DNA from: Candidatus Sulfurimonas baltica
Lineage (GTDB): Bacteria > Campylobacterota > Campylobacteria > Campylobacterales > Sulfurimonadaceae
Assembly (NCBI RefSeq): GCF_015265455.1
Contig: NZ_CP054492.1
Location: 2,046,001-2,110,000 of the forward strand
Length of the DNA: 64,000 bases
Reading direction: 5' to 3'
The notes beneath the pieces are model-generated. The model ran no database searches. It saw only the letters and a program-made list of their open reading frames with translations, and was not told where the DNA came from. The position numbers and the translations under genes were made by a program. Numbering within the stretch: the first letter of the stretch is position 1; every line of letters begins with the position of its first letter. Of the stretch, positions 6,283 through 55,116 are shown piece after piece.

Positions 6283-7289
6283 AATAAAAGCTCTTCTTGG
6301 TCTGGAAACGAAATATTCAAAATGTCATATGTGCTTCTTGTTGCTTTTCTTCCCTTTGCTGTTCTCTCTAGATACCCGTTTGCAATCAAATAAGGTTCAA
6401 GAACATCTTCAACTGTTCCCTCATCTTCACTTAGAGCAGCTGCTATAGTACTTAGTCCAATGGCTCTCCCATTTGCACCTGCTAAAAGATTTAAGAGCCT
6501 TATATCCATTTCGTCAAATCCATGTGAGTTTATACCAAGCTCCTCTAATGCATACTCTGCTCTTGAGTGTCTTATATCCCTCTCGTTTGCAACATCTGCA
6601 AAATCTCTAACACGTTTTAAAAGACGCAATGCTATTCTAGGAGTTCCACGACTTCTTTTAGCTATTTCCATACTGGCATCATACACTATCTTTTTATCTA
6701 ATTTAGTAGATGCTTGCGTTATAATTTTTGACAACTCGTCATGAGTGTAAAACTGCATTCTAAAGTTCATACCAAATCTGTCTCGTAAAGGGCTTGAAAG
6801 CATCCCAGCCCTTGTTGTTGCGCCTATTAAAGTAAATCTCGGCAAGTCAATTTTAACGGTTTGAGCAGCTGGTCCACTACCGATTATAATATCTATGCGA
6901 AAATCTTCCATTGACGAGTATAGTATCTCTTCTACTGCTGGTGAGAGACGATGAATTTCATCTATAAAAAGTATATCGCCCTCTTCTAGGTTTGTAAGCA
7001 GAGCCGCTAAATCTCCACTTTTTTCTATCATTGGAGCAGCAGTGACTTTAATATTTGCATTCATCTCGCTCGCAATAATTAGAGCTAAAGTAGTTTTTCC
7101 AAGCCCTGGAGGTCCAAAAAACAGAACATGGTCTAGAGCCTCATTTCTTTTTTTACTGGCTTCTATAAAAACTCCGAGATTTTTTTTAATCTGCTCTTGA
7201 CCAATATACTCATTCCAAGCATTAGGACGAAGAGTTATTTCTATGGTTTCTTCATTCTCAAACTTCTCGATCTCAACCAATCTTTCCAT
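6279..7289 (-). CDS. ruvB: Holliday junction branch migration ATPase RuvB
   Basis: RuvB is the hexameric motor that drives branch migration with RuvA during recombination. The 336 residues include Walker [12 protein letters not shown], Walker [15 protein letters not shown], the sensor region [10 protein letters not shown], the arginine-finger region SPLRDRFG, and a C-terminal winged helix with [10 protein letters not shown]. The ATG shares one base with the panB stop (TAATG). ruvA and ruvC are not in the window. Standard length and complete motifs. Confidence 0.97.
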
Positions 7290-49480: not shown

Positions 49481-50170
49481 TTACTTATTAAAAGAGTGGT
49501 ATATTTTAGTAAGTTCTATATAGAGAGAATCAGGTTTTAACTCACTGTTTTCTTCCCAAACTCTTTTCATAACTACATTGTCCTCTTCTGCGCCCCACAT
49601 TTTGTTATATGAGCCGTCTTTATACCCATTATCTTGGCGAAGCTGGTTTAAAATATTTTTTCCAACGTATAGTTTATAGAGACTCTGCAAATCCAAGCCA
49701 CTCATTAAAACTAAATCAAAAAAATCTTCTATCAGTTCTTCTATGTTTAGTGCATCTTTGGATAGCGTGCAAAGCATAATATCTTCAACCTTAGCTATAA
49801 CATCATTTTGGGGAGCAAACAGCTCGCTTTGTATATCAATTTTATTAAAACTATTTAGCTGAGATATATTTATTGCTAAGTCTTCAACGCCACCTTTTAA
49901 GTTTTGTGAGTAGTTCTCTATTGCTAAACTCATTATAAAATGCCAAACATCTATAACCTCAATCTGAAGGTTATCCCAATCAGCCTGGGCATCTATATTT
50001 TTCCAGTGCTTCCAGACAAAACTGTCAATCATCTCAGCGCACTCCATATATATGCATCTTCTCCAGTTGATAATTTTGCCGTTTTTAGTTATTCCATCAG
50101 TCCAGTTTTCACCATTTGTAGCCTCATTAAGCCCAGCTTGAAGTTGTAACATTAATAAAATTTTATCCAC
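49481..50170 (-). CDS. dut: Dimeric (all-alpha) dUTPase
   Basis: A 229-residue all-alpha NTP pyrophosphohydrolase of the dimeric dUTPase type found in Campylobacter. It hydrolyses dUTP to dUMP and PPi to keep uracil out of DNA. The metal-binding helices are in NWRRCIYMECAEMIDSF (ExxE) and QIEVIDVWHFIM (ExxD). The start is GTG 50170 with AAAGGAA upstream. It is the first gene of a two-gene unit with the ABC ATPase. Confidence 0.92.
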   Translation of the reverse strand: MDKILLMLQLQAGLNEATNGENWTDGITKNGKIINWRRCIYMECAEMIDSFVWKHWKNIDAQADWDNLQIEVIDVWHFIMSLAIENYSQNLKGGVEDLAINISQLNSFNKIDIQSELFAPQNDVIAKVEDIMLCTLSKDALNIEELIEDFFDLVLMSGLDLQSLYKLYVGKNILNQLRQDNGYKDGSYNKMWGAEEDNVVMKRVWEENSELKPDSLYIELTKIYHSFNK

Positions 50171-50284: not shown

Positions 50285-50458
50285 ATGAAGAGAATTAATT
50301 GTAGAAGATGTGAATATTTTTTTATTACTTGGGAAGCCAGTAAACCTTACGGTTGTAAAGCTTATGGCTTTAAATCTCCACAAATACCATCAATTGTGGT
50401 TTTTCAAAGCAGCGGCACTGATTGCACAATGTTTAAACTTAAGAGCACGTCCAAATAA
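50285..50458 (+). CDS. 57-residue cysteine-containing protein, conserved-looking
   Basis: A small gene: MKRINCRRCEYFFITWE, then KPYGCKAYGFKSPQIPS and VVFQSSGTDCTMF. Four Cys (6, 9, 24, 47) in CxxC...C...C order suggest a zinc or iron-sulfur site. I recall tiny proteins with the same CxxC-F-ITWE-GCKAYGFKS layout in other proteobacteria, sometimes mislabelled uracil-DNA glycosylase. AGG seven bases upstream and a possible -10 support expression. It overlaps the convergent UPF0306-like gene by 20 nt. Confidence 0.75.
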   Translation: MKRINCRRCEYFFITWEASKPYGCKAYGFKSPQIPSIVVFQSSGTDCTMFKLKSTSK

Positions 50459-50858
50459 TTTTTTTACCAAAACCTAGCTTATTATCTGTCATTTTAAACT
50501 CTTTTATCTTTATTGACCAAAGTTTTGGATTCATTGCTAGAGCATAAGGAAATCTCTTGAAGTATAGGTTTTTAAGAGCTTGTTCATCCAAACTTACAAA
50601 CTCCCCTGTAAACTGAATTCCCTGTATCTTACCGACAATTTTAGTCTCCAAGACTACACTCCCGGCAACAGAGGAGTTCTTTAGAATATTTTTAATATGA
50701 GTTGTATCATCGCTGCTAGCTACAACAAATGATAGTTTCTCTTTGTCAAATGCATAAAAAAGATTACATGCGCTTAGCTCATTCTCACTCATTGTGGCTA
50801 AACTCAGTACATGATGCTCTTGTAAGAAAGAGTCTATTTTATCTAGGTTACTACTCAA
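50439..50858 (-). CDS. UPF0306/YhbP-like pyridoxamine-phosphate-oxidase-fold protein
   Basis: A 139-residue split-barrel protein of the FMN-binding/PNPOx-like superfamily. HHVLSLATMSENELSACNLFYAFD opens the barrel (short form LSLATMSENEL), and FTGEFVSLDE follows. It resembles UPF0306 proteins, whose role is unknown; flavin or heme binding is possible. A TTG start at 50858 overlaps the upstream 76-residue gene by 8 nt. It is the last gene of the ovoA-led unit, which gives a redox context. Confidence 0.72.
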   Translation of the reverse strand: MSSNLDKIDSFLQEHHVLSLATMSENELSACNLFYAFDKEKLSFVVASSDDTTHIKNILKNSSVAGSVVLETKIVGKIQGIQFTGEFVSLDEQALKNLYFKRFPYALAMNPKLWSIKIKEFKMTDNKLGFGKKIIWTCS

Positions 50859-51081
50859 AACATTTAAACAAATGCTTCTCTAAATCAGCATTGCTGTTGA
50901 GATCTCTTTTTCTAAGCATAAGTTTAGCTATATCATCATTAGCCATTGTCTCATACATCTCCGAAGGGTTTGTCATACTGTAGTAACTTTTTAAAAAATC
51001 TAAAAGTGTCTCAAAATTATTATCTTGTTTTGCGGAGTGCTGCTTAAAAATTTTAAACTCTTCCCAATTTATATCAATCAA
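50851..51081 (-). CDS. 76-residue hypothetical protein in the ovothiol-type operon
   Basis: A small helical acidic/basic protein (INWEEFKIFKQHSAKQDN, LRKRDLNSNADLEKH). It has no membrane segment and I recognise no family. It starts at TTG 51081, overlapping the PLP-lyase stop (TTGA), with AGGGA seven bases before. It overlaps the UPF0306-like gene by 8 nt. The tight coupling suggests it is expressed with the thiohistidine genes. Confidence 0.6.
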   Translation of the reverse strand: MIDINWEEFKIFKQHSAKQDNNFETLLDFLKSYYSMTNPSEMYETMANDDIAKLMLRKRDLNSNADLEKHLFKCFE

Positions 51082-52265
51082 CTATATTTCCCTTTTTTTT
51101 CTAATGCATATTCCAGTTTGTCAATAACTTGTGACATTTTAGCACAAGAGAGTGCAAAATTCAATCTCATAAAGCCACTCCCCTCTCTGCCGAAACTAAG
51201 ACCTGCATTTAAGCCGAGTTTTGCCTCTTTTACAAAAAAATTTCGTAAAGCTTTATCACTTAGATTCATACCCCGGCAGTCAAGCCATGCCAGATATGTC
51301 GCCTCTATAGGTACTATCTTTATCATGTACGGGTATCGAGAACATACTGCTTCTAACATATTATAATTTTTTTGCAGATGAACTTTTAACTCCTCCAACC
51401 ACTCTTTGCCATTTTTATATGCTGATTCATATGCTACATGTGAGAGTACACTGCCCTGAGCAAAATGGACACGTTTATAAATTTTTAAATATTGTTCACG
51501 AAGCTTTTTATTTGTAATTACTACACTGCTCATAGCAAAACCAGCCATATTAAATGTTTTTCCTGCGCCGATTGCCGTAATAGTTATATCTCTTGCCTTA
51601 TCATTTAAAGAGGCAAAAGGGATATGTATATTCGGTTTATATACCAAGTCGGAGTGGATCTCATCACTAAACACTACAATATTATGTTGAAGACACACAC
51701 TTAATATCTCCTCAAGTTCTTCTCTTCGCCAGGTTCTGCCGACAGGGTTGTGTGGAGAGCACAAAAGCAGCAGCTTAGTTTTTTTGTCTATTTTTGACTT
51801 TAAATCTTCTATGTCAAAAACATATTTCCCATCACTGTTTTGCTTGAGTGGATTTTTCAGCAGCTCTCTGTCATGCTCAATTACACTGTGAAAAAACGGA
51901 GGATAGACAGGAGTTTGTACTATAATCTTGTCGCCAATCTCGCTAAACGCTTCAATAGCCACATTCATGGATGCTACTACGGAATGGGAGTAGAGCATAT
52001 CTTCTAATAAAAACTCTATACTATGCTCTCTCTTCATCCACTCTATCTGAGCTTTAAATGCACTTTGCGGAACATCTTCGTATCCAAATATAGGATGGTT
52101 AAGCCTCTGTTTTACAGCTTCTATAACAAAATCCGGAGTATTTATATCCATATCTGCGACCCAAACAGGCTGTACATCTTCTGTTTTGAAAAGCTTCTCT
52201 CTTAGTGTGTATTTTTCTGCATTTGTATCTTTCCTACATGCAGACTCTGAAAAATCATAACTCAA
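51078..52265 (-). CDS. PLP-dependent C-S lyase, OvoB candidate (PatB/MalY type)
   Basis: A 395-residue fold-type I PLP enzyme of the MalY/PatB cystathionine-lyase class. It has PVWVADMDINTPDF near the N-terminus, LLCSPHNPVGRTW, VVFSDEIHSDLVY and the PLP-Lys loop GAGKTFNMAGFAMS (about K236). It directly follows ovoA with a 4-nt TTGA overlap. This is the expected place of OvoB, the sulfoxide lyase that releases 5-thiohistidine from the OvoA product. A TTG four codons earlier is possible, but the one at 52265 has GGA eight bases before it. The OvoB role is inferred from position; a general cystathionine beta-lyase is the alternative. Confidence 0.82.
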   Translation of the reverse strand: MSYDFSESACRKDTNAEKYTLREKLFKTEDVQPVWVADMDINTPDFVIEAVKQRLNHPIFGYEDVPQSAFKAQIEWMKREHSIEFLLEDMLYSHSVVASMNVAIEAFSEIGDKIIVQTPVYPPFFHSVIEHDRELLKNPLKQNSDGKYVFDIEDLKSKIDKKTKLLLLCSPHNPVGRTWRREELEEILSVCLQHNIVVFSDEIHSDLVYKPNIHIPFASLNDKARDITITAIGAGKTFNMAGFAMSSVVITNKKLREQYLKIYKRVHFAQGSVLSHVAYESAYKNGKEWLEELKVHLQKNYNMLEAVCSRYPYMIKIVPIEATYLAWLDCRGMNLSDKALRNFFVKEAKLGLNAGLSFGREGSGFMRLNFALSCAKMSQVIDKLEYALEKKGKYS

Positions 52266-54358
52266 TTTTTTTTCCAAACAGTAGCCTGAGAGATAGTATG
52301 CTGATACTTTCTGCTTGTCTCTTTTATAACAAACTCAATATCTTGAGTATGTATCAGCTCAAACTTAGCGCCTAGTATCTCTTTTAATGCCTCTAAAGTC
52401 CTAACCTCTTTGCCATTCTTATCTCTGTAGCCTCCAAGCCAAAACTCTTTTTTTGTTGAGCTCTCCTGCCAAGTGTATGGTGATGTTAAAATCAAGATTC
52501 CATCTCTGTTTAGCCTATCGACAACAGTCTCCAAAAAGAGTTTAGGGTTGTAGAGTCTGTCTATTAGGTTGGTTGCTATAACTAAATCATATGAGTTGAA
52601 GTTAGGCTTCAGATTACAAGCATCGCCCTGCCAAAAAGAGACTTTTTCTCTTATCTTCTCATAGCCTAACTCTTCAATTGTAACCTTTTTATTTGTAAAA
52701 ATTTCACCCTCTTCATAGGTATGAAAAGCCACATAACCATCATTTTTCAGCTTTGAACCGACTTGGACAAAACGAACAGAAAAGTCTAACCCCTCAACCT
52801 CATCAAATGTTTTTGCCAGCTCAAATGTTGCTCGACCGGTGGCACATCCTAAATCAAGCGCTTTGCCTCTGTTAATCGCAAACTTAGAGGCCAGTTTTGC
52901 ACATGCAATTGCAAAATTTTCAACTCCAAACTTCTCCTCGCCGTACTGAAATTCACAATACTGAGAAACAAGCTCATCACTCTCATAGATATCTATCTTC
53001 GCCTCTTTATGCAAAGCCGAAACAACATACCTGAAACCTGCATGTTGATAGAAGTGTCTTCTAAAGGCGTAACGGGAGTGCTTCATTATCAGGTTTCCGC
53101 TGCTAGCCCATGAAGAACCTAAAATAAGTGCGTGTTTGTTGTCAAAAGTTGGGACCGAAAAGTCATCATATGCCTCATGCACTTTGAAACCTTCAAAGCC
53201 ATGTATAGGTGTTGAGCTCCACTGCCATACATTACCAACAACATCATAAATATCGCCGAAGTTATGCTTATCTACTGGGCATGAACTAAAATTATTTAGG
53301 TTCAAGTTCGCACTATTTTCATCAAACTCTGGAATATCTTTAAGTCCTACATGTAGAGTTATTGCACCGTACTCCGCTTCACTTGGCAAAGTATAAGCAA
53401 TACCCTCTTTTTGCGTTTTATATCTGCAAAAGGCTTCGGCTTCCAAAGCATTTACATCAACAGGCCAGTTGCTTGGCATGTCAATAATTTTACTTAAAGC
53501 TCTATATCTGTAGACGCCGTTTTGCATAACCCAAAATGGGGGATGTTTCGCAGATGTAATATCTAAAAACTTTTTCCCCTCTTCATCCCAATACTCCTCG
53601 TTATCGTATCCTCCATCTTTGACGAACTCCATAAACTCACTGTTTGAGACAAGATATTTTGAAGCTTGAAACTTATCTACATGTATGGACTCTTCTCCGT
53701 ACTCGTTATCCCAGCCATAAAGATTATGAGAACTATCTTTTCCTAAATTGACTTGAGCTTCAGGTATCTCTACCATCTCATTTTTAGGAGCATCGCCTGC
53801 TTCGAAGCAAGGAGTGAGTCCATCCACTTCTTTTATATATTCTAATGGCATCTGTCTATGAAGAACCAAAGAAGTCTCTATATGAATTCTCTCATGTTCA
53901 ATTCCCATAAGGATAATCCACATATCAGAGTCCTGCGTTATAGGAAGAGATAAAGGTATATTCATAATTAATTTATCAACCAAATCCCTTACTTTTGTTC
54001 TGTACTCTCTAACATCTTGCACTTTTGGCCAAGTATAGTTTTTAGACTCAGTATCATCCCAATCCATCTCATCTACACCGATGGCAAAAATAGACTCAAA
54101 ATCTGGATTTATTCTTTCGTCTATTATCTTCATATTTATAAGTTTATTTATGTAAAAAGTTGCCGTATGTCCGAAATAAAATATCATAGGATGGCGAGTT
54201 ATTTCAGATTTTTTATAAAAGACTTCATCACTTTTTAACAACTCGAACACTTTTTCAAATATCATATTTGTATTGTAAAAATATTCCCTTATCTCTTCTC
54301 GTTTTTTTTGTATGTCACCACCATCTAGCGTGACGGGATATAAACTAAACTTGCTCAA
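52262..54358 (-). CDS. ovoA: OvoA-type 5-histidylcysteine sulfoxide synthase/methyltransferase
   Basis: A 698-residue three-domain enzyme. An N-terminal DinB-like domain carries the non-heme iron ligands HERIHIE at 155-161 (HX3HXE), with H64 in YFGHTATF near the cofactor site. A central FGE/SUMF1-type sulfatase-modifying domain has VGNVWQWSSTPIHG and AFRRHFYQHAGFRYV. A C-terminal SAM methyltransferase begins ALDLGCATGRATFE. The C-terminal methylase distinguishes OvoA (ovothiol) from EgtB (ergothioneine). It joins cysteine to histidine C5 with O2 and later methylates thiohistidine. The start is TTG 54358 with AAAGGG upstream. First gene of a four-gene unit. Confidence 0.9.
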   Translation of the reverse strand: MSKFSLYPVTLDGGDIQKKREEIREYFYNTNMIFEKVFELLKSDEVFYKKSEITRHPMIFYFGHTATFYINKLINMKIIDERINPDFESIFAIGVDEMDWDDTESKNYTWPKVQDVREYRTKVRDLVDKLIMNIPLSLPITQDSDMWIILMGIEHERIHIETSLVLHRQMPLEYIKEVDGLTPCFEAGDAPKNEMVEIPEAQVNLGKDSSHNLYGWDNEYGEESIHVDKFQASKYLVSNSEFMEFVKDGGYDNEEYWDEEGKKFLDITSAKHPPFWVMQNGVYRYRALSKIIDMPSNWPVDVNALEAEAFCRYKTQKEGIAYTLPSEAEYGAITLHVGLKDIPEFDENSANLNLNNFSSCPVDKHNFGDIYDVVGNVWQWSSTPIHGFEGFKVHEAYDDFSVPTFDNKHALILGSSWASSGNLIMKHSRYAFRRHFYQHAGFRYVVSALHKEAKIDIYESDELVSQYCEFQYGEEKFGVENFAIACAKLASKFAINRGKALDLGCATGRATFELAKTFDEVEGLDFSVRFVQVGSKLKNDGYVAFHTYEEGEIFTNKKVTIEELGYEKIREKVSFWQGDACNLKPNFNSYDLVIATNLIDRLYNPKLFLETVVDRLNRDGILILTSPYTWQESSTKKEFWLGGYRDKNGKEVRTLEALKEILGAKFELIHTQDIEFVIKETSRKYQHTISQATVWKKN

Positions 54359-54390: not shown

Positions 54391-55116
54391 ATGAAATTTT
54401 ATCAAAGTAACTTATTAAATAACTTTTCGAATATTAGTCAGGTTTTCACATTAAGAGAGAGTGGGAATTTAGCCTTTCATGTAAATGACAACATTCTACA
54501 TGTAAGGACGAATCATGATATTTTAGCCAAAGAGCTAAGCTACAATCTAAACTCACTTATTCATATGAAACAAATCCATTCCGATATTGTACATGTAGTA
54601 AATGATAATGACAGCTTTACGAATCCCCCTACATGTGATGCAATAATAACAGACAGGTTAAACACTCCACTTATGGTTATGGTTGCTGATTGTAGCCCAA
54701 TTCTCTTTTATGATGATAAAAAAAAAGTAATAGCAGTTGCTCATGCTGGACGTGCTGGAGCTTTTAAAAATATAGTTAAAAATGTAATTGACTCTTTTGT
54801 AAACAATTTTAACAGTGAAATAAATAATATACATGTAACTATCGGAGCCAGTATAGGTTCTTGCTGCTATGAAGTTGGAACTGAAATTTTCTATGAAGCC
54901 AAAGAGCTGAACTTAGAGTATGCAATTGAGAAAAAAGATGAGAGTTTTTATCTTGATATAAGTAAAATTTTAAAAAAACAACTTTTGGCATGTGGGATTA
55001 AAAAAGACAATATTGAGATCTCTACCGAGTGCACAAAATGCAACTCCGATAAATATTTTTCCTACAGAGACGACTCTCTTACTGGAAGATTTGCCGGTGT
55101 TATAGAGCTAAAGTAG
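54391..55116 (+). CDS. pgeF: Laccase-domain protein PgeF (YfiH)
   Basis: A 241-residue DUF152 protein, once called polyphenol oxidase. In E. coli it edits peptidoglycan by removing L-Ser from UDP-MurNAc-L-Ser, and homologues act on purine nucleosides. HMKQIHSDIVHVV, PLMVMVADCSPILFYD, VAVAHAGRAG (as AVAHAGRAG) and GASIGSCCYEVG contain the conserved His-Cys-His metal site. It diverges from ovoA across a 32-nt gap. Its end overlaps dxs by 9 nt on the opposite strand. Confidence 0.92.
   Translation: MKFYQSNLLNNFSNISQVFTLRESGNLAFHVNDNILHVRTNHDILAKELSYNLNSLIHMKQIHSDIVHVVNDNDSFTNPPTCDAIITDRLNTPLMVMVADCSPILFYDDKKKVIAVAHAGRAGAFKNIVKNVIDSFVNNFNSEINNIHVTIGASIGSCCYEVGTEIFYEAKELNLEYAIEKKDESFYLDISKILKKQLLACGIKKDNIEISTECTKCNSDKYFSYRDDSLTGRFAGVIELK

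Follow-up and report, generated by a model that had tools for sequence, protein, structure and literature searches.

Probable two-gene ovothiol A operon of ovoA and a PatB-type lyase in Candidatus Sulfurimonas baltica

Sulfurimonas species are sulfur oxidisers of oxic-anoxic boundaries, and ovothiol is a sulphur antioxidant. We analysed a window of 64,000 nucleotides (nt), corresponding to positions 2046001-2110000 of the 2.74 Mb single-contig genome of Candidatus Sulfurimonas baltica, in which an initial annotation had described four coupled genes as a probable ovothiol A operon. The genes follow one another on the minus strand in the order ovoA, a pyridoxal 5'-phosphate (PLP)-dependent lyase gene, a small gene that we refer to as S76 and a yhbP-like gene (Table 1; coordinates are window positions). 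Successive overlaps are 4, 4 and 8 nt, the S76 start overlapping the lyase stop and the yhbP-like start overlapping the S76 stop, which bears out the order and coupling that had been described. The mechanically called lyase open reading frame (ORF), 51078-52277, is the longest one and opens at a TTG within the last OvoA codons, 16 nt before the end of the ovoA stop codon; a start at the TTG at 52265 would overlap the ovoA stop by 4 nt. As -16 was the commonest lyase-ORF offset at other OvoA loci too, we set the actual overlap at about 4 nt. Scans for promoters and terminators were uninformative, with 21 promoter-like sites against a shuffle mean of 15.5 and 1 terminator-like site against a mean of 2.1. 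We conclude that ovoA and the lyase gene very probably form a two-gene ovothiol A operon, with the PatB-type lyase as OvoB, upstream of a block comprising S76, the yhbP-like gene and a dUTPase gene.

Table 1. Genes at and around the proposed ovoA-lyase operon
Feature	Window position	Strand	Description
ovoA	52262..54358	-	698 amino acids (aa), TTG start; 5-histidylcysteine sulfoxide synthase with C-terminal 5-thiohistidine N-methyltransferase domain
PatB/MalY-family PLP C-S lyase, proposed OvoB	51078..52265	-	TIGR04350 match; likely TTG start at 52265
S76	50851..51081	-	76 aa, TTG start; five-helix protein (predicted), matches no known family
YhbP/UPF0306-like, PNPOx-type split-barrel fold (predicted)	50439..50858	-	TTG start; NF002900 match under cut-off
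dUTPase gene (context)	49481..50170	-	PF08761, 116 bits
pgeF, divergent upstream neighbour (context)	54391..55116	+	TIGR00726, 178 bits (cut-off 141)

The window OvoA scored well above the cut-offs of the models for both halves of the enzyme, with 650.5 bits against TIGR04344 (N-terminal sulfoxide synthase, cut-off 400) and 318.7 bits against TIGR04345 (C-terminal methyltransferase, cut-off 170). Its iron-ligand stretch of the HX3HXE form, GIEHERIHIE, has the same residues in PDB entry 8khq, the best solved OvoA relative, which matched over nearly the full length (E 1.3e-242, 810 bits). The narrow form of this motif was present at 112 of the 119 OvoA loci of relatives, and five of the remaining seven have HX3HXE. 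The protein shares both halves, the iron site and an S-adenosylmethionine-binding stretch with OvoA enzymes that carry a fused methyltransferase (TIGR04344 plus TIGR04345; 8khq); no diagnostic difference was seen, and it appears to be an ordinary member of this group. EgtB, SenA and OvsA are all among its matches as well, as would be expected if the enzyme made ergothioneine, selenoneine or ovoselenol instead. However, it reached only 161 bits against the EgtB model (cut-off 360) and 153 bits against the SenA model (cut-off 420), compared to 650 for OvoA, and the PDB chains of OvsA (69 bits), SenA (67-68 bits) and 'EgtB-IV' (up to 337 bits) all fell short of the 810 bits obtained with 8khq. 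An EgtB, SenA or OvsA identity was rejected on these scores. As the methyltransferase half also passes the OvoA C-terminal model, we consider a product other than ovothiol very unlikely. The window genome has a second protein with a formylglycine-generating enzyme-sulfatase domain (G000:C1:970993-971664; PF03781, 139 bits), which scored only 54 bits as OvoA.

The lyase scored 529.6 bits against TIGR04350, the PatB family C-S lyase model (cut-off 340). In the proposed pathway, OvoA would combine histidine, cysteine and O2 into 5-histidylcysteine sulfoxide, from which the coupled PLP lyase would remove the cysteine part. The 5-thiohistidine so formed would then be methylated to ovothiol A by the C-terminal methyltransferase domain of OvoA. 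We infer these reactions, the ovothiol A product and its redox use from the characterised families. A published article (PMC12631010) describes a three-step ovothiol pathway in which OvoB is a broad-specificity beta-lyase.

The best solved match of the lyase, PDB 6qp3, is named cystathionine beta-lyase PatB. Membership of the PatB family would also suit a housekeeping cystathionine beta-lyase, or a general cysteine-conjugate lyase, that merely lies beside ovoA while another lyase serves the pathway. With a single full-length PF01053 protein in the window genome (G000), a double role is possible. The distribution of the genes among 397 Campylobacteria genomes, drawn from a larger group, argues against the housekeeping reading. 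OvoA exceeded its cut-off in 119 of these genomes and a PatB-family lyase exceeded that of TIGR04350 in 193. All 119 OvoA genomes had such a lyase, compared to 74 of the 278 others, a partner count that refers to the PatB family as a whole and not to the window's lyase lineage alone; OvoA over the cut-off without a PatB-family lyase was found in 0 of the 397. Lists of OvoA-less genomes within genera were compiled by hand from the scan rows. The lyase was missing from such genomes in seven OvoA-variable genera (g1, 2/2; g17, 6/6; g30, 1/1; g41, 3/3; g44, 1/1; g46, 1/1; g50, 3/3), i.e. from all 18 when the single g2 genome is included with these 17. The OvoA-less genomes G015, G027 and G010 had no lyase over the cut-off, yet each kept a full-length PF01053 protein.

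The genus of the window gave a similar picture. An OvoA match was found in 81 of its 85 genomes, 78 of them over the cut-off. G428, which was scored OvoA-less, holds the end of an ovoA gene beside a lyase gene, apparently cut by a contig end, and would be the 82nd genome. G015, G027 and G409, the last of which is 92% complete, lack OvoA as well as any lyase above the cut-off. We also fetched 119 OvoA loci, consisting of 118 from other genomes and a second, below-cut-off copy in G234. The lyase ORF started between -50 and +150 nt from the OvoA stop in 54 of the 119, spread over families f1, f4, f7, f8 and f11; four further loci overlapped more deeply, and at eight the lyase lay 1.1-5.5 kb on.

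A phylogeny was built from 96 rows (92 lyases and 4 PDB chains), including 17 rows from OvoA-less genomes, with 21 rows of genus g1 omitted. The window lyase belonged to a clade of 27 rows (support 99/92) with zero rows from OvoA-less genomes, a purity that does not add independently to the co-occurrence count, because the three sampled OvoA-less f1 genomes have no such lyase. Groups for approximately unbiased (AU) tests were named after the tree was seen. Placing the window's clade with 6qp3 was rejected (p-AU 1.3e-5), as was placing it with 6qp3 plus 9k71 (p-AU 1.5e-88). We take these two entries to be PatB C-S lyases of Bacillus; they are structurally solved family members (39% and 32% identity, respectively) but form a clade separate from that of the window, and the window lyase was thus not assigned to the Bacillus type. 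Taking the tree together with the gene distribution, we regard the housekeeping explanation as quite unlikely.

The window lyase was not an orthologue of the Erwinia-type enzyme either, as grouping of its clade with PDB 5z0q was rejected (p-AU 5e-6). We take this entry, whose title reads only 'Aminotransferase, class I and II', to be OvoB of Erwinia tasmaniensis. It is likewise a PatB/MalY-type PLP protein, with about 35% identity and a reaction proposed to be the same, but represents a separate lineage. The 5z0q group (support 100/100) contains the rows sampled from family f10 and from the f3 genera g55 and g63, whose lyases are not adjacent to ovoA. The group with 6qp3, 9k71 and 4dgt contains 12 genome rows, 9 of them from OvoA-less genomes; the other 3 are second lyase copies of genomes that have OvoA. 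Sampling of genus g14 covered three OvoA genomes, each with a lyase of an OvoA-associated clade and two of them (G315 and G346) with a Bacillus-PatB-like copy as well, and four OvoA-less genomes, which have only a Bacillus-PatB-like copy. Judging from the tree, the OvoB role seems to be filled by different PatB-family lineages in different Campylobacterota, which is possibly new.

Several observations weigh against a dedicated two-gene operon. The scanned genomes are related, and the counts are therefore not independent. The lyase could have a function in sulfur amino acid metabolism as well, given the 74 OvoA-less genomes with a PatB-family lyase and a substrate range that may be broad in this family. 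PatB-family lyases were retained in two of three OvoA-less genomes of g10 and in all ten of g14; the g14 case may be explained by the tree, in which the sampled OvoA-less copies group with Bacillus PatB. Eight rows from OvoA-less genomes fell into other OvoA-partner groups, three in the 5z0q group (all g55 rows), four in the f4/f11 group and one in the f7 group. At 53 of the 119 OvoA loci no same-strand downstream lyase was found in the fetched stretch, some of these stretches being cut by contig ends. Finally, the lyase was 1.1-5.5 kb from ovoA at 7 of 28 loci of the Sulfurimonas genus, and at all seven the lyase, S76 and YhbP genes remained together. Such a split of ovoA from the other three genes counts against a strictly two-gene unit.

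A few OvoA genes among the relatives departed from the usual form. In genus g5 (e.g. L087, L090, L097 and L102), the OvoA frame was 467-502 aa long in eight of nine cases, a length into which the methyltransferase half would not fit. TIGR04345 was over the cut-off nowhere in seven of the nine g5 genomes, while G176 and G390 have one such match elsewhere; G217 has a 644-aa OvoA frame that retains a partial TIGR04345 match. The pathway in g5 may end at 5-thiohistidine or continue with some other modification of it. Some bacterial OvoA-like proteins without a methyltransferase domain are mentioned in PMC9103826. In addition to a full-length copy elsewhere, G234 has a second OvoA-like gene (L121) with a score of 355 bits, under the cut-off, and a 473-aa frame. 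The OvoA match of G056 (L118) is split in two, the pieces lying in different frames and one of them containing a stop, and looks interrupted.

The claim of the initial annotation that this locus specifies an ovothiol A pathway was thus strengthened for the gene pair by the family models and by lyase co-occurrence, with the product assigned by analogy. Two findings that could have spoken against it, a lyase inside the housekeeping cystathionine-lyase/PatB group and absence of the pair from close relatives, were contradicted by the AU tests and by the OvoA matches in 81 of the 85 genomes of the genus. PMC9103826 states that two species having ovothiol genes are anaerobic, with the S. hongkongensis genome paper among its two references, which would imply in print the presence of ovothiol genes in a Sulfurimonas. 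Among the publications listed by our literature search on ovothiol in Sulfurimonas or Campylobacterota, none concerned this operon. This is a known pathway in a group for which we found little written on ovothiol. It is probably present in almost every genome sampled from the genus of the window and in 119 of the 397 Campylobacteria, and a simple two-gene test of ovothiol function becomes possible. Since several distinct PatB lineages are suggested to carry out the lyase step, similarity to the Erwinia enzyme should not be the only criterion in scoring genomes for OvoB.

S76, the third gene, looks like a real gene because it was matched in 30 of the 397 genomes, all in the window's family (f1), and because its differences from relatives fell mostly at codon position 3 in 5/5 ungapped comparisons (e.g. 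20/13/31). The protein had no match in Pfam or NCBIfam, a Pfam scan with 43 members gave scattered weak matches only, and a PDB profile search yielded nothing convincing. Its predicted fold consists of five helices (predicted local distance difference test score, pLDDT, of 92.9) and had no significant PDB match.

Evidence linking S76 to the ovothiol genes was mixed. OvoA was present in 29 and YhbP in 30 of the 30 S76 genomes of the class scan, corresponding to S76 in 29 of the 119 OvoA genomes. Within the window's genus S76 was found in 73 of 85 genomes, being absent from the 4 scored OvoA-less (among them G428, later seen to have the ovoA end) and from 8 of the 81 with OvoA (Fisher p 2.4e-4). 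This co-absence is the best evidence tying S76 to ovothiol; adjacent genes can also vanish in one deletion. Such joint loss is hinted at by G027, in which ovoA, the lyase gene and S76 are all missing: the start of its YhbP resembles the end of S76 by eye, with no match by BLAST, suggesting that neighbouring genes could be lost together. We kept 80 of the 94 S76 loci found in named genomes. The lyase gene was directly upstream at 73, further off at two and missing at four, and one was cut by a contig end; YhbP was directly downstream at 69, and at most of the other 11 S76 still followed ovoA and the lyase gene.

The four S76 loci without a lyase gene are L301, L308, L267 (taken to be the G311 contig) and L338 (taken to be the G010 contig). 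In G311 the ovoA-lyase pair (L059) is on a different contig from the S76-YhbP-dUTPase genes (L245). In G010, PgeF is followed by S76-YhbP-dUTPase-ABC (ATP-binding cassette) at L242, with ovoA and the lyase gene missing. No OvoA match was found in the genomes of L301 and L308, and at L301 a stop-containing remnant of the C-terminal end of the lyase (6832-6987) directly precedes S76. Three genomes (L242/L338, L301 and L308) thus have S76 and YhbP at a locus from which ovoA and the lyase gene are absent. A reading of S76 as an ovothiol-linked lyase partner that has persisted as a relic, or been put to another use, in genomes lacking ovoA strikes us as improbable. If it were true, the window's family would, in combination with the lyase tree, have evolved both an OvoB of its own, derived from a separate PatB lineage, and a helper of its own.

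The fourth gene encodes a YhbP-like protein. Its best family match was the YhbP/UPF0306 model NF002900, but at 129 bits the window copy was under the curated cut-off of 176; in an alignment of YhbP-like proteins, 36/36 members matched this model at E 0.01. The predicted fold (pLDDT 93.5) is a PNPOx-type split barrel that matches heme- and flavin-binding split barrels, as would fit the YhbP family. A PDB profile search gave nothing convincing, and a literature search on YhbP/UPF0306 found nothing on topic. Linkage of YhbP to the ovothiol genes was negative. Of the 235 class-scan genomes with a YhbP match, 70 also had OvoA and 165 did not; OvoA alone was present in 49 and neither in 113 (odds ratio 0.98). 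YhbP also adjoins the dUTPase gene where ovoA and the lyase gene are missing (loci among L242-L245). At L243 (G015), for example, DXS is followed by YhbP-dUTPase-ABC, and S76 is missing.

The initial annotation had suggested that the two small genes are new accessory parts of the pathway, which would make the whole four-gene set one functional operon with S76 and YhbP as auxiliaries. A YhbP that binds flavin or heme might, for instance, reduce a lyase-derived sulfenate or recycle ovothiol disulfide, and S76, being small and helical, might partner with the lyase. The overlaps of 4 and 8 nt, the frequent placement of S76 between lyase and YhbP genes, its genus-level absence together with OvoA and a predicted split-barrel fold common to flavin and heme proteins are all consistent with this possibility. 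However, YhbP and OvoA are unassociated among the 397 genomes, S76 is confined to family f1 in that scan and occurs in 29 of the 119 OvoA genomes, G027 hints at joint loss of neighbours, and S76 and YhbP persist at L242, L301 and L308 without ovoA and lyase. The four-gene linkage that had been proposed as a check was indeed found in the genus, but there the order accompanies a general synteny of DXS, PgeF, dUTPase and ABC genes, and for this reason we did not accept four-gene synteny alone as evidence. A four-gene ovothiol operon is thus unlikely, and S76 and YhbP were not accepted as conserved accessory genes given their co-occurrence and the loci without ovoA. From these presence/absence patterns we infer that the two are neighbours of the ovoA-lyase operon with other or unassigned roles. 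The most likely explanation is that they are unrelated to the pathway, and they become less likely candidates for pathway parts.

Beyond these genes, an ABC ATPase gene lies downstream of the dUTPase gene, and a 606-aa gene lies beyond pgeF, which we take to be DXS, a name given from its sequence rather than from a family search. A 57-aa cysteine-containing ORF faces the yhbP-like gene at 50285-50458 on the plus strand of the window, with counterparts at L242 (5416-5589), L243 (6101-6274) and L244 (6001-6177). It had no Pfam or NCBIfam match, was matched in 43 of the 139 loci searched and is probably an unannotated small gene.

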